Assembly: GCA_900095095.1 (NCBI GenBank)
Contig: FMBT01000366.1
Span: 1 to 64,000, forward strand
Direction: 5' to 3'
Length of the DNA stretch: 64,000 bases
Source: Fragilariopsis cylindrus CCMP1102
Lineage: Eukaryota > Bacillariophyta > Bacillariophyceae > Bacillariales > Bacillariaceae
The notes beneath the pieces are model-generated. The model made no database searches and was not told where the DNA came from. It was given only the letters and a program-made list of their open reading frames with translations. Positions 7,336 to 15,882 of the stretch are shown here, in pieces. Positions within the stretch are counted from its first letter, which is position 1, and the number at the start of each line of letters is the position of its first letter. The translations under genes were made by a program, and so were the position numbers.

Positions 7336-7728
7336 TCAATATCTCAATAGATTATAGACTATACCATAAACAAAGATCTGCATGATGCTATCAGTTGGTG
7401 TTAGAGTGTAGATTGTTCCATGCTGAGTTACTATCTCATCATCTCCTTGTCGTACGACTTCAAAAGGGAGATTGAATGATTCAATGGTAGAGTGCTGTGT
7501 GTTGCAGTATTCAAGGATTGCATCATATGCAATGAGATACTGATCATCATCATCTTGATCATCCAATTCAATAAACCATTTTTGATTCACCATATCAAAC
7601 GACATTATCTTACCATCATGTTTATATGATCCAGTATAACCAACCCACCAGTGGTCGGGTATCTTCACAGGTAGTCCTACTAGTGAATCGGCCCATTCTA
7701 TATCAATTTTCTTTGTTCTAGGAGCCAT
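7336..7728 (-). CDS. Small Trp/Asp-rich protein of unknown function, possibly transposon-associated
   Basis: About 130 residues starting at MAPRTKK (ATG at 7728); an in-frame upstream Met at 7785 exists, but MAPRTKK gives the more natural start. The sequence is compact and globular: EWADSLVGLPVKIPDHWW, YKHDGKIMSFD, KWFIELDDQDDDDQYLIAYD. The pattern of aromatic residues and short beta-like segments resembles small Tudor/chromo-like folds. I have an impression, not a verified match, that similar proteins occur beside diatom retroelements. No intron is needed. It stands alone between non-coding stretches. Confidence 0.5.
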   Translation of the reverse strand: MAPRTKKIDIEWADSLVGLPVKIPDHWWVGYTGSYKHDGKIMSFDMVNQKWFIELDDQDDDDQYLIAYDAILEYCNTQHSTIESFNLPFEVVRQGDDEIVTQHGTIYTLTPTDSIMQIFVYGIVYNLLRY

Positions 7729-9245
7729 TCTAATCCAAATATTTTGATTATATTTCTTATGGAATTGTAATATTATGAAAATCAACCAAAACGCGTGGTA
7801 AAGTTACGAAAACAGCTAGTAACTAAAATATCTTCACTAGTAGTTAGTGTGTGTGAAAATTTGAAAACACAAGTTTTGAAAAAGAATTTGTTAGTAAATT
7901 TGCTAGTAAGTTTACAAGACTGACCATTTGATCCATATTTTCCATGCGTTGATCGCCTCTTTTTCGTGTGACTTCAACAATTTTTCAAATTTTGAGTCTT
8001 GGACGCGAGTCACATCAGAATATTTGACCAAAAATGGCCGTTGCGCGACACATTTTTGCGTCTCTCCGATTCAAACTGTTCTGGTCACTAATTAAGTAAG
8101 TACGGGCACGTGAGGGTATCCGTTGGGCTGTTACAAACTCCTCGGGAGTAGTATTAAGTATATAAAAAGACACGTGCCCTTGAACGGAGATGCACTGTGT
8201 CTCAATAGGGGGGATAAGTCCATTTTTTTAGGGAGAAACACCCCAAAGAAAAAAGGGGCTCTTTTTCCTATAATAGTAGTAGGCATCCTTCTCTCCGCTC
8301 TTATTCAGATTCTTCATTCATTCAGACTGATCAGAATTTCTGATGATGCATGGACGGGCAAGATGATGATACACCGCACTACTGTAACTTAGTATCATTG
8401 TTGGCTGGTTGATAAAAATGCTGATTGTATTATAGTACTGTACATACGTCACTGTACTACGTATTGTTCAGGCTTGAAAATTTCAGACGATCAAATCGAA
8501 TCAATCGAATCAAGGAGACATGTGTTAACTTACGTCGTCGCCAATAAGAGATTATAAGTAACACGTGTTTAACTACGTACACGTACTGTAGTTCTCAAAT
8601 CTACAGTGCTTGAAGTGTTAAGTAACTAATGTTTTGACTTACTGTTAGTAAACGTTATATTTCACTCGAATCTAAATTGCTTTACTGCACATAAATTAGT
8701 CCACGTGGAAGATTTTTTTTCTAATTCGATTCGTTTGAGTCGAGTCGAATTTTTTTTCTTAACCGGGGCGGTTAGTTACACGTTACGTACTGTACTAGTA
8801 GATAGATGTGATGTAAGCAATAACGATGGTCACGTTTGCTTTTTTTGTGGATTTGCTCCGATTGCTTATGCATGTGTCTATTAAATAATCAACAAACTGA
8901 GCGATGATGCACACTTTTACTTATGCTTTGATCTTCTCAAAAATAATGAGGAGACATGCGTTATTTCGTCCTTGTCATTTATTTTCATTAAATATACTAA
9001 CTAATAAAACGGTACAAACCGACTCGACTCTCTAGATTCTCTCTCTCAAATACTCTACACATAAATTTTAAAGACTTAAAAAGGAGTTACGTTACGTTAG
9101 ATTGATTGAAAGGAAGGAAGGAAATAGGTAACCACCGGAAGCAAAAGTAAGGTAAACCCGGTCAGTCAATAAGGCAGGTCAATAGCTTAGGCAGCTCTAT
9201 CTCGCTCAGCTAGCAAATTGATTGCTGGAATAAAAAATCAAAAAA
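7729..9245. other. Intergenic region
   Basis: About 1.5 kb with no supported gene. An 89-codon + ORF at 8123-8392 has a hydrophobic segment (ALFPIIVVGILLSALIQIL) but no other support, so I leave it out as a gene. GTACTGTAC-type palindromes occur near 8436, 8584 and 8788. The last 200 bp probably holds the promoter of the polyamine synthase gene at 9246. Confidence 0.4.
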
Positions 9246-9799
9246 ATGGAATACAACTTCTCTAAAGCATCATCATTGCAATCATCATCGTCATCATCGT
9301 CATCAAGATCCTCATCACCACAGCAGTCACCTATAGTATCATCATTAGATATCAATATGATGAACAGCATTGAAGAAAGTGTCGTTGTAGTTGACACCAG
9401 CAATAACACCGCCAAGAACAACAGCAACGGCGGCAGTAATAGTAATAGTGATAATAACAATGCCGATGACAATGATAGTGACACATCTGGTACGAGTGGA
9501 ACTACTGATAGTACAGATAGAAGTCACCCACAATCAACAACATGTATGACGACGCCTACGACGACGCCTAGTACACCAGGTGCGCCAGGTGCGCCAACGA
9601 AAGATTCTTCTCAAAATAAAAGGAAAAGAAGAAATGGTGTTTCTTTAGTAACAACTGTTATATCAATTTTACTAGCAGTCTTTGTTGGATTGTCAGCAGG
9701 AATGAAATATTCGAACGCTGTCGTTACAGTCATGAATAATAATAGTAATAGTCCTAGTACTGAAGAAGCTCCTCAATGCGACGACGACGATAATGATGC

Positions 9800-9830
<31 letters not shown>

Positions 9831-12800
9831 ACAACTACGCAACAATTCTTTCTTGAAAAGAATAATAAAATTGAATTTAAATACGTAAAAATCAAACCGG
9901 ATGAGGACGAAGATGATGATGAGAATAACAAAGATGATGATGAGGAGGATGAAGATGATAATGATGAAGATGAAATCATTTATGATGAATACGGAAATCA
10001 AATATTTCAAGGGGTTGGAAAAATAATCCAATTTTTTATTAATGCCTATGATATTGACTATTTTGATAATGATACTGAAAATCAAGATACTAATACTGAT
10101 TTTGAAAATAATGGTGAAGAAATTGTGACAGAATTATTAACTGATTTAATAGAAGCATCAGATGAATGTGAAGATATTATTGATTTATATGGATTTTTCG
10201 TTCATGATTCATCCAAGATTAGGAAAAAAGAAAAGAATATAAATAAAAATAAAACATTGAATATAGTAGGTATGTTACGAGATGGAAGAGGACATATTTC
10301 CTTAACATTATGGCCCTATCAAAAAAAACTGATGGCGGATTTCTTTATTGGTCCATCACGACAAGTAGCTACAGAAGAAGAAATTGATGACGACGATGAT
10401 GACGATGACGATGAGGACGAAATTGAGGATGGAATACTATTGACCTGTATCTCCTCCATGGCCAAAGTCTTATATCCAACTGTGAATGATCAGATTATAC
10501 CTAATAATATTCCAGGTTCGATTGAGGATGTATCACATTCGACACAATTAGGGTTATTTGAATCTTTAAGTAAATACAATCAAGATCCGTACCGGTATCG
10601 ATGGAAAATAGAAAAATTACGTGGTTTTTTACCCTTAAATTTAAATGATGCCGATTTAATTGGTGAAATGGGTTCGTTAATCACATGGAAAAATCGTGTC
10701 GTTTCGATCCAATCTAATTTTCAACAAATTGATATTGTCGATGGTGAAGATGATTTTTCAACACTGGGTTGGATGGAATCTTATAATGGTGACAACGACA
10801 AAACAGATCCAAATATAAATAAAAATATTCGTGAGTATATGGATAAACCATCCAATAAACAATTTTTTCAACCAGATCGTCTATTATACCTAGATGGGGT
10901 GATACAAAGTACCAGACAAGGATTAGCGGCGTATCATGAAGCATTAGTCCAACCGGCCATGTTTGCACATCCCAATCCCAAACGGATTGCTATTGTAGGT
11001 GGTGGAGAATGTGCTACCTTGCGTGAAACATTAAAACATTCGACTGTCGAAAAAGTAATCATGGTCGAAATTGATCCTATTATTGTCGATGTGTCGAAAA
11101 TATATTTAGAAGAATGGAATGATTGTTCTATGTTTGGGGATGGATCTATCCGATATTGTATGGACGATCCACGTGTCGAAATGTATCATTTAGATGCATT
11201 GCAATGGTTCCGTGATCGATATTCCAATGAAAGTCAACAGGAACACAATATCTTATTTGGTACCGAAGAATTATTTGATGTGGTTATATTAGATGCATTG
11301 TAAGTGTTTTGTTTATTGATTATTATTGTTTATTTATCTTTCCTTTTCTTTTTATTCTTTTTGTTTTATTCTTTTTATTGTATTTTGGTGGTTTTCGTTC
11401 AAATCCTCTTACACACACACAATTTGTATTCCCATCCGTTTCCCTCTTACTCAAATATTATTAGGGATCCACAAAATGCCGTTGACTTTGTTGAGGCATT
11501 ATATGGGGATGGTCCATTTATGAATTCATTGTACAATTCCTTAACAGATAATGGTGTACTATTAACGCAAGTCGGAGAGGCTGTCAGCGTGGGTGATATA
11601 TCAGAAACATACCCCGGTAATTTCAATTATCAACGTGCACAATATGAAAGTGGATTGATCAATCAAGGGTTTGAAGTGGTTATGCAATACGATGAACCCC
11701 GTGCTGGATTTGATGGTATCTGGTCATTTTATGCGGCATTTAAAGATGATTCGATCCGTGAACGCTGGTTAATGAATGAGGCACAAATTGATTTAGAAAT
11801 CCATAAACGATCCATCCGACGAACACCACGAGATGAAGATGAAGAAGGTGGTGGTGAAATGAATAGTTTGTTTGATGTATTTGATGGACCGACAATGGCA
11901 ACGTATCGGTACCCATCCAAGGCGGCACAGGTTATATATTGCTTACGTAATCCTAAACCGTATGGTTGTGTTACAGACATCAATAATAAAGACCATCATA
12001 CACCCTACGGTGATGCTGACTACAAAACCAGCAAAGAACGGCCGTATTATGAACCATCAGGATTCGATCCAGAAATTCCAAATTTTAATGCTGCTAATTT
12101 TATTGTAGACAGCAGCAACAGCAGCAACAACAGTAACAACAGCAACAATTTAGTTTCTCGAGTAACAATACCAGAAAAGTCGTATCTAATGTTAGAACAA
12201 TCAATTCATGACGTACGGGTTGCTCCCGCAACGTCATCGATTGTTGATAGGAGTAGTAGCAGTAGCAACGATGCCCTTAGCACCATTATCAATCCGGTAA
12301 AGGAATTTGTTTCCGGTGATAGAGAAGGCTTGTCCATTCCAAGACGGGTAAGTTATAACAATGAAATTCCAAAGCACCATCCATGTTTATTGCTATTATT
12401 ATTATCGGAATTTTTCTCTCTTTTTCTACTTCTTGTTCTTGATCTAATAACAACTATTTTTTGTTTTGTTTTGTTTTGTTTCAACATTCGACAAATTTGA
12501 TAATATCAACAGGGAGACATCCATACCACATACGGTGTTGATAGTGGATTACTTTCTTTCCTAAAACACGGATGTAATGGAAATTTTAACACTGGTACTT
12601 CCCAGTCGTCTCTAACCGAAATGACGACCGATCCGGATTCTATTCCAGACGTTCTTGTTGACGAAGAAAAGGAGGAAGGAGACGACGGTCAACTATTGTT
12701 ACGAGTTGCCAGATCCTACCAGAAGAATGGTACTAATAATTCAAAAAAGATGATGACGATGGAGAACGGTTTGCCGAAAGAATTGGTGTTTAATCCTTCT

Positions 12801-12953
12801 TTTACTAGGAATTCACATCAACCAGAATCTATGATAAGTTCTCGCACGATATCACAGGGAGAAGAAATCTCTTCCAACTTTGTTCCTTGGTACGATCAGG
12901 CTGGATGGAACCATCATATTTCGACGTTACGAGATCAATGTCAACAACAGTAA
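9246..12953 (+). CDS. Membrane-anchored AdoMetDC-like/aminopropyltransferase fusion with SET-like tail
   Basis: About 1125 residues. Exons are 9246-11299, 11465-12347 and 12513-12953; both introns are 165 bp with GTAAG donors and AG acceptors, and phases match. A low-complexity N-terminus precedes one transmembrane segment (about residues 131-153). Near residues 341-370, GRGHISLTLWPYQKKLMADF aligns with the bacterial SpeD core, but the pyruvoyl-forming Ser, the downstream His of the HTWPE motif and the catalytic Cys are replaced, so self-processing is unlikely. The aminopropyltransferase domain (about residues 545-720) has LLYLDGVIQST, IVGGGECATLRETLKH, VEIDPIIVDVSK, DDPRVE and, across the first splice, ILDALDP. 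GGGE-AT-LRE is closer to thermospermine-synthase-type motifs than to GGGDGG spermidine synthases. Exon 3 carries LLSFLKHGCNGNFNTG and QGEEISSNF, resembling a SET C-terminal half. Product specificity is not known. Confidence 0.8.
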
Positions 12954-14874: not shown

Positions 14875-15756
14875 TCAAGAACTACTTCCGCTTCCAGAAC
14901 TACTTCCGCTTCCAGAACTACTTCCAGAACTACTTCCAGAACTACTTCCAGAACTGGTTCCGGATCCAGAACTAGTTCCAGTAGCAGATTGAGCAGGAGT
15001 AGGAGGTGTAGTAGGCGATTCAGTAGGCGATGCGGTAGGAGATGCGGTAGGAGATGCAGTAGGAGATGCAGTAGGAGATGCGGTAGGAGACGCAGTAGGC
15101 GTTGCGGTAGGTGGTTCAGTAGAACCACACTGTCCACACGATGCGGGGCAAACTTCGGATAAAACCATCGTTTTCTTATTCATTCCCTTCTTCTTCCTAT
15201 CCTTTATACCCCTAATCTTTGCCCTTTCATCACAAAATCCACCAGTCTTAATTTTTTCACACGTAGTTTTCCCCTTGATAAGTCCTTTATTACCCTTACC
15301 CTTAACCATAGCCTTGAATTTACCTTCCGTATCCTCACATGGCTCTGCCGTAGGTGATGCAGTGGGCGTTGCAGTGGGCGATGCAGTGGGCGTTGCAGTA
15401 GGTGATGGGGTAGGAGAAGCAGTAGTTGGACAGTTTCCACAGGATGCTTCACAATTTTTTTTCACCGTTTTATTGATTTCACAAAGGTTTCCTTCTTCAT
15501 CGATCCATTCGGAGCATGTTTTTTTGTCTCCCTTACTTTCAATACTGAATGTCTTGCTATTCTTCTTCTTGTCTTCGCACTTTTTATCCTTCAGAGCACG
15601 ACGTTCTTCGGCAGCGATGGAACTACCACTACTTTTGAGAGCACGACGTTCTTCGGCAGCGATGGAACTACTACCACGAATCATAGCTGCATCAGCATTA
15701 TTCGCGGTGATGGTGAAAACCACAGCAAGAATGAGTAAAAGTTGTTTCGAAAACAT
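14875..15756 (-). CDS. Secreted protein with two ShK-like Cys modules and PT-rich linkers (paralog 1)
   Basis: 293 residues, one exon. A signal peptide (MFSKQLLLILAVVFTITANNADA) is followed by a short duplicated AAEERRALK segment. The first Cys module has CEDKKKNSK, CSEWIDEEGNLC and KKNCEASCGNC. A PTASPTATP linker leads to a second module with CEDTEGKFK, GKTTCEKIK and VCPASCGQCG, then a longer PTASPTAS linker and a Gly/Ser tail. The C-x(n)-C-x-x-W-C-x(n)-C-x3-C-x2-C layout fits the ShK fold, a small disulfide module often linked to extracellular enzymes or adhesins. No catalytic domain is present. Closest relatives are the genes at 19201 and 22601. Wall or matrix placement is inferred. Confidence 0.8.
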   Translation of the reverse strand: MFSKQLLLILAVVFTITANNADAAMIRGSSSIAAEERRALKSSGSSIAAEERRALKDKKCEDKKKNSKTFSIESKGDKKTCSEWIDEEGNLCEINKTVKKNCEASCGNCPTTASPTPSPTATPTASPTATPTASPTAEPCEDTEGKFKAMVKGKGNKGLIKGKTTCEKIKTGGFCDERAKIRGIKDRKKKGMNKKTMVLSEVCPASCGQCGSTEPPTATPTASPTASPTASPTASPTASPTASPTESPTTPPTPAQSATGTSSGSGTSSGSSSGSSSGSSSGSGSSSGSGSSS

Positions 15757-15882
15757 TTTCTTTTTTGGTATGATGTTTTTCGTATTGAATGGTATGTTAG
15801 AGGAAAAAATAATTGTGAGTACAATGATGAATTGATAAAAAGTCGATGATAAAAAAAAAATACATCGATTAGACGACTACGC

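Follow-up and report, generated by a model that had tools for sequence, protein, structure and literature searches.

Fusions of S-adenosylmethionine (AdoMet) decarboxylase with an aminopropyltransferase (APT), some with an additional histone N-methyltransferase domain, have been described in diatoms in passages of PMC3820600 and PMC12029483, and papers citing Michael 2011 (FEBS Lett 585:2627) relate that the fusions were proposed there as the diatom long-chain-polyamine synthases. Three such genes are reported from Phaeodactylum in a passage of PMC10968388, and the 2025 paper on APT evolution, PMC12803844, puts the number of APT fusions in Nitzschia inconspicua at 32; where they touch on these proteins, PMC6356823 describes their functions as still to be characterized and PMC12803844 describes the fusions as in need of further study. 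The family bears on the standing question of how diatoms synthesize the long-chain polyamines used for silica and how they methylate them. Here we describe the gene at positions 9246-12953 (+ strand) of a 64,000-nucleotide stretch of Fragilariopsis cylindrus CCMP1102 (contig FMBT01000366.1, positions 1 to 64,000; the window). It belongs, as a divergent member, to a multi-copy family whose proteins are ordered membrane anchor, decarboxylase domain (SpeD), APT, and SET; intact members of this family are encoded in the same genome. We give a probability of about 0.58 to the reading that its product is an anchored APT belonging to the fusion family of diatom long-chain-polyamine synthases, in which SpeD and SET are catalytically dead but retained and decarboxylated AdoMet (dcAdoMet) comes from paralogs with a live SpeD.

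The window gene shares with the described diatom fusions a fused AdoMet decarboxylase and APT, a histone-methyltransferase-like domain present in some of them (which we take to be SET), and multiple copies; it differs in that its SpeD and SET lack catalytic residues. As such, the fusion is nothing unusual: five other loci in this genome share the SpeD-APT order and diatom fusions, the three-part form included, are already described; judged from the residues, the dead-domain version is an unusual variant. In animals, spermine synthase derives from a bacterial SpeD-APT fusion that lost decarboxylase activity while the domain remained necessary for dimer formation and activity, so that the human enzyme has an APT behind a retained SpeD without decarboxylase activity (as outlined in PMC12803844). 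The earlier note on this DNA had offered as precedent the Trypanosoma AdoMet decarboxylase prozyme, likewise a catalytically dead paralog that has been retained (PMC5201418, in part); we rejected it as the nearest one in favor of human spermine synthase, which is itself an APT fused to a dead SpeD (PMC12803844, same passages). A literature search aimed at inactive AdoMet decarboxylases in diatoms turned up only work on plant thermospermine synthase. The prozyme, unlike the window gene, is not fused to an APT and belongs to the eukaryotic AdoMet decarboxylase class. We know of no membrane anchor and no SET domain in human spermine synthase, and its APT is, compared by description, of a different lineage from that of the window protein.

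Two further groups share parts of this architecture. Bacterial SpeD-SpeE fusions, such as those of Pelagibacteraceae, also have SpeD and then APT in one frame, but with ESH, HTFP, and TCG intact, and nine fusion open reading frames (ORFs) showed no SET by eye. Diatom-specific SET-domain methyltransferases, thought to act on long-chain-polyamine-linked methylation (Nemoto 2020, as cited in part of PMC11554505), have the SET domain in common with the window protein, in which it is degenerate.

Results

The window gene and its divergent copy

The gene is real and its coordinates are correct: three open-frame exons joined across GT-AG introns encode a product of 1125 residues. A divergent syntenic copy on contig C171 (G000:C171) encodes 1056 residues and has both introns at equal positions, and read-through of either intron there meets stops. 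The flanks of the two genes align in pieces from ~4 kb upstream to ~7 kb downstream, with ~4 kb of additional sequence in the downstream flank of C171. The simplest reading is that C171 is an allele that has diverged strongly; the alternative is a segmental copy.

One intact and two degenerate domains

The APT alone of the three domains was detected when the whole protein was searched against Pfam and NCBIfam. Residues 562-722 match Spermine_synth (PF01564, E 1.2e-23), the NCBIfam equivalog cut-offs for APT are not reached, and the nearest solved chain is that of an aminopropyltransferase, 1uir (E 2e-26). The core residues Tyr563, Glu588, Glu608, Asp683, and Asp686 are all present, and the glutamate at the GGGD position is also found in 1uir. 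Roles of these and the other catalytic residues discussed here are assigned after earlier studies of SpeD, spermidine synthase, and SET enzymes, and positions are read from our alignments. The APT domain of the earlier note's polyamine synthase is confirmed.

The SpeD-then-APT order of the window protein rests on Pfam for the APT and, for the SpeD-like part, on shuffle tests and on alignment with the paralog C265a. C265a itself passes Pfam in all three domains, at E 1.6e-22 for AdoMet_dc, E 4.7e-30 for Spermine_synth, and 24.6 bits for SET (cut-off 22.4), and its SpeD can be aligned to solved SpeD chains, including ESH and TCG. A spliced alignment of C265a to the window protein covers residues 155-1122 and places the SpeD-like part at the SpeD of C265a. 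The SpeD-like profile score was equaled by 6 of 2,000 shuffles (z 3.4) and, when the acidic loop was omitted, by none of 2,000 (z 4.5); the corresponding part of C171 was equaled by 6 of 2,000 (z 3.2), as against 1,910 and 138 of 2,000 (z -1.45 and 1.65) for control stretches from two other parts of the window protein. A W/RGF motif is retained. At the aligned positions, the pyruvoyl serine is replaced by Gly349 and the histidine by Thr354, as the earlier note had proposed; the loss of the cysteine, which it had also claimed, is not established. Both HMMER alignments place that position at Gly369 ungapped, and one of two hhalign alignments likewise opens no large gap, whereas the spliced, family, and one further alignment, together with the other hhalign run, place it at Cys401 across a gap of ~32 residues. 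No pyruvoyl group would form either way, because the serine is absent, and the assignment of a dead SpeD is unaffected by the cysteine question because it rests on the serine and histidine.

The earlier note had seen half a SET domain in the last exon. That half-domain was rejected: the footprint is complete over exons 2 and 3 and homologous to the SET of C265a, with the N-terminal half (LVSRVTIPEKSYLMLEQ) in exon 2 and the C-terminal half in exon 3. In pairwise BLASTP, the two halves together match the SET of C265a at 26% identity (E 1e-15) and that of C262 at E 7e-12. Its working residues are gone: GxG is absent from the window SET, Lys997 stands in place of Asn, and Phe1102 stands in place of Tyr. 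The SET profile (PF00856), whose cut-off C265a exceeds, found no match in the window tail up to E 10, and a PDB search with the C265a SET gave two unrelated matches (E 0.45 and 0.75). This catalytic degeneracy of SET was absent from the earlier note, as was the opposite pattern in other paralogs described below.

The N-terminal membrane anchor of the earlier note fits the sequence. Residues 131-149 form the sole strong hydrophobic stretch of the protein (Kyte-Doolittle 2.42; next best, 1.23), preceded by KRKRR, and the net charge around it is +5 on the N-terminal and +1 on the C-terminal side. Hydropathy and charge suggest a type II anchor with the enzyme side predicted to be lumenal.

Purifying selection on a degenerate domain

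The window gene and C171 were compared by Nei-Gojobori counting over 1,043 codons, with the acidic loop (377-395) excluded from domain counts. The degenerate SpeD-like domain is under purifying selection: the ratio of nonsynonymous to synonymous divergence (dN/dS) is 0.18, with 24 nonsynonymous differences over 518 sites and 30 synonymous over 133 (Fisher p 2e-9), and the 39 codons around the lost active site have no nonsynonymous and four synonymous differences. Conservation is far higher in the APT than elsewhere (dN/dS 0.05, Fisher p 9e-20; 98% identity between copies), which points to the APT as the main function. The SET-like domain gives 0.32 (Fisher p 0.014), a weak test in that dS is very low there; the N-terminal tail gives 0.45 and the linker between anchor and SpeD 0.46 (p 0.04). 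dS is 0.22-0.27 across SpeD and APT but 0.02-0.07 over the final third of the gene (11826-12953, against 9246-11825), as if sequence had been exchanged between the copies by gene conversion.

Degeneration in different combinations among paralogs

A search of the genome returned 26 matches to PF01564, 11 to PF02675 (E up to 1), and 24 to the window protein. Forward-order fusions, SpeD then APT, occupy six loci, allele-like doubles being counted once: C47/C171 (C47 is the window gene), C265a, C262/C679, C265b, C90/C597, and C99. The live-SpeD paralogs among them are of the bacterial class (PF02675). ESH, HTWP, and TCG are kept in five of the six loci, the window gene being without ESH and HTWP (C679 and C597, doubles of C262 and C90, were omitted from this alignment; the C679 model has a short extra intron that is missing in C262). 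The APT core is kept in the window gene, C265a, and C262, with Asp replacing the EID glutamate in C265a, and C99 keeps most core residues (GGAE; DAMEP). In C265b, Gly occupies the GGGE position and the DP motif is missing; C90 is without the Tyr and without the glutamates of GGGE and EID. The SETs of C265a and C262 retain GRG, NHGC or NHAC, and NY, of which the window gene and C99 have none, and the stretches searched behind C265b and C90 yielded no SET. An N-terminal hydropathy peak is present in C47, C171, C265a, C262, C265b, and C90; the C99 model shows none, but its N-terminus is spurious, as are the outermost ends of some spliced lone-APT models.

C265b (L048) and C90 (L049), with SpeD residues intact, APT degenerate, and no SET found, are a mirror image of the window gene.

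Four further loci have the reverse order, APT then SpeD: two on C253 (L052, L053) and one each on C767 (L054) and C587 (L055). In the SpeD of all four, Gly replaces Ser, Arg replaces His, and Trp replaces Cys (EG..R..W, by eye), so that SpeD appears dead in five of the 10 fusion loci. Both C253 genes have a SET-like stretch N-terminal of the APT (by eye), and one of them falls just under the Pfam cut-offs (SET, 21.8 bits against 22.4; AdoMet_dc, 20.7 against 25). A separate eukaryotic AdoMet decarboxylase is encoded at one locus, C384. In an APT tree of 18 rows, from which the partial doubles C232 and C90b and also C587 were omitted, the reverse-order genes plus C307 split from all others (100/100); the forward-order fusions form no resolved order among themselves, 4 of 15 inner branches being starred and 8 of 15 open.

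The C-termini of the C253 genes contain a further stretch that looks SpeD-like (VLWDGREHVDLN).

Beyond this genome, a scan of genome contigs returned at least 600 stretches, at least 580 of them relatives; the best 80 were mostly from Pelagibacteraceae, the rest being archaeal plus one Bipolaricaulota, and ORFs were read in 18 of these 80. Viral contigs scanned with the exon-1 protein gave 600 pattern matches and no relative.

Discussion

Our results suggest a membrane-anchored type II protein, ordered anchor-SpeD-APT-SET, in which the APT would be the sole remaining enzyme part, with dcAdoMet as aminopropyl donor and a polyamine or polyamine chain as acceptor. The SpeD part, unable to form pyruvoyl, may hold the protein together or pair with other SpeD domains, and the SET part may be kept for binding or structure rather than as a methyltransferase. 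Because the arrangement of human spermine synthase matches, the analogy suggests that the SpeD-like part serves in assembly and that other proteins provide the dcAdoMet; the window gene would then be a further case, besides animal spermine synthase, of an APT retaining a dead SpeD. Candidate sources of dcAdoMet are encoded in the genome, namely, the live-SpeD paralogs and the eukaryotic decarboxylase locus, and the paralogs might supply it within the same complex. APT activity, the lumenal side, pairing, dcAdoMet supply, and a role in silica formation are what we infer from these data. The earlier suggestion of a dead SpeD acting as scaffold or regulator on a membrane anchor would fit both the purifying selection on the SpeD-like part and the presence of silicon transporters in this genome (67.9 Mb, 818 contigs), where the family has 27 matches (best E 1.1e-226), compared with one match, under the cut-off, in 14 control genomes. 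By themselves, these matches point to a silica-forming alga, most probably a diatom.

Several observations weigh against this reading. AdoMet_dc (PF02675) has no match in the window protein up to E 10, the gene is not among the 11 matches of the genome at E up to 1, and the SpeD-like part scores about 2 bits against hidden Markov models (HMMs) of intact SpeD, built from five diatom rows or from the same five plus seven prokaryotic rows; hhalign against these models is likewise weak (for one pair, E 0.065 and 0.031). By sequence alone, homology to SpeD is therefore weak and below database significance, and the earlier identification of a SpeD core stands by position in the whole-length alignment and by the shuffles but not by profile. 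A catalytic-type cysteine may be retained at Cys401. Structure prediction, which the earlier note had named as a check, was run, but neither AlphaFold2 model supports the SpeD match: the mean predicted local distance difference test (pLDDT) score was 31.7 for exon 1 alone and 37.4 for the SpeD-like part with four archaeal SpeD rows, and with both below 40 the models were not used as evidence. The selection test compares only two copies, with the acidic loop excluded; the evidence for selection on SET is modest, and the APT-SET linker, with one synonymous and seven nonsynonymous differences, shows no sign of constraint.

The weak profile scores and the low pLDDT values are what would be expected if the middle domain were an unrelated insert with a chance likeness to SpeD around GHISLTLWP. 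Such an insert would also have to fall in the correct place and order between anchor and APT, retain the W/RGF motif, and exceed its shuffles at z 3.4-4.5 where two other parts of the protein gave z -1.45 and 1.65, and we regard it as unlikely. Hardly more favored is a prozyme-like regulator, in which the dead SpeD would pair with the live SpeD of a paralog and switch the decarboxylase on, the APT being secondary. Live-SpeD paralogs exist in this genome, and the gene models of four among the five include an N-terminal hydrophobic stretch; the trypanosome prozyme is found in a functional complex with its enzyme (in a passage of PMC5201418). The degree of conservation of the APT, however, argues for the APT as the main function. 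The live paralogs are, moreover, of the bacterial class, whereas the trypanosome AdoMet decarboxylase is of the eukaryotic class.

Whole-domain degeneration is recurrent in this gene family, and one might go further and suppose that all three domains are inactive, or that the APT has changed its substrate, leaving a structural or polyamine-binding protein on the silica side; with the APT core residues intact and strongly constrained, this seems to us improbable. Most remote is decay of the whole gene. Catalytic residues are lost in two domains and the APT-SET linker is unconstrained, but two divergent copies keep intact frames and the same splice sites. A pseudogene was rejected on those intact frames and on dN/dS values between the copies that lie well below 1 in SpeD and APT, with SET giving weaker evidence in the same direction.

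Within the reading of an anchored APT with retained dead domains, the mirror-image degeneration of C265b and C90 fits a division of labor, without proving it. Tentatively, and with less confidence than in the anchored APT itself, we suggest that the paralogs may form a mixed membrane-bound complex, in which C265b and C90 would contribute decarboxylase only, the window gene APT only, and C265a and C262 all three activities; SpeD-SpeD pairing would pass dcAdoMet between subunits in a secretory compartment without cytosolic dcAdoMet. If so, the dead domains would be assembly parts, and the mix of subunits could set species-specific long-chain polyamines. Domains dead in different combinations, together with selection on a dead domain, predict that subunits can be assigned to steps and that their SpeD domains pair.

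Features of the locus and neighboring sequence

Table 1. Positions of the gene parts, domains, and substituted catalytic residues in the window
Feature	Position	Strand	Basis
Exon 1 (residues 1-684 plus two bases of codon 685)	9246..11299	+	ATG at 9246; donor GTAAGT at 11300; C171 donor identical
Exon 2 (remainder of codon 685, then residues 686-979)	11465..12347	+	AG precedes 11465; GTAAGT donor at 12348; both shared with C171
Exon 3 (residues 980-1125, stop codon)	12513..12953	+	AG precedes 12513; TAA at 12951-12953
Predicted N-terminal membrane anchor, about residues 131-151, KRKRR immediately N-terminal	9636..9698	+	Hydropathy, charge
SpeD-like domain (residues 253-461) lacking the catalytic Ser and His; acidic loop at about 377-396	10002..10628	+	Spliced alignment to C265a, shuffle test; no Pfam match
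Gly349 at pyruvoyl Ser position of intact paralogs (ESH)	10290..10292	+	Alignments; C265a ESH register to solved SpeD
Thr354 at His position of intact paralogs (HTWP)	10305..10307	+	Alignments
Gly369 at ungapped catalytic Cys position (FTCG)	10350..10352	+	HMMER alignment
Cys401, rival catalytic Cys position after 32-residue insertion	10446..10448	+	Spliced and family alignments
APT domain, first part (Tyr563, Glu588, Glu608, Asp683)	10692..11299	+	Pfam PF01564 E 1.2e-23; 1uir alignment
APT domain, second part (Asp686 onward)	11465..11810	+	Pfam, C265a and 1uir alignments
SET-like domain, N-terminal half (no GxG)	12087..12347	+	Pairwise BLASTP to C265a SET, E 1e-15
SET-like domain, C-terminal half, and C-terminal W...L..QC motif	12513..12950	+	NHGC to KHGC at Lys997, NY to NF at Phe1102

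About 1 kb 5' of the start codon, ~0.93 kb of the window (7347-8273) is missing in C171, which has ~20 bases there. Near full-length copies of 7391-8268 occur elsewhere in the genome, at least nine of them at 89-92% identity; the insertion is allele-specific and resembles a mobile element, with clear terminal repeats not found in it. Adjoining the polyamine gene, at 14875-15876 on the - strand, lies an ORF that starts like a signal peptide and continues with two Cys-rich ShK-like stretches as well as long PTAS repeats; by eye, it resembles a secreted cell-wall protein.

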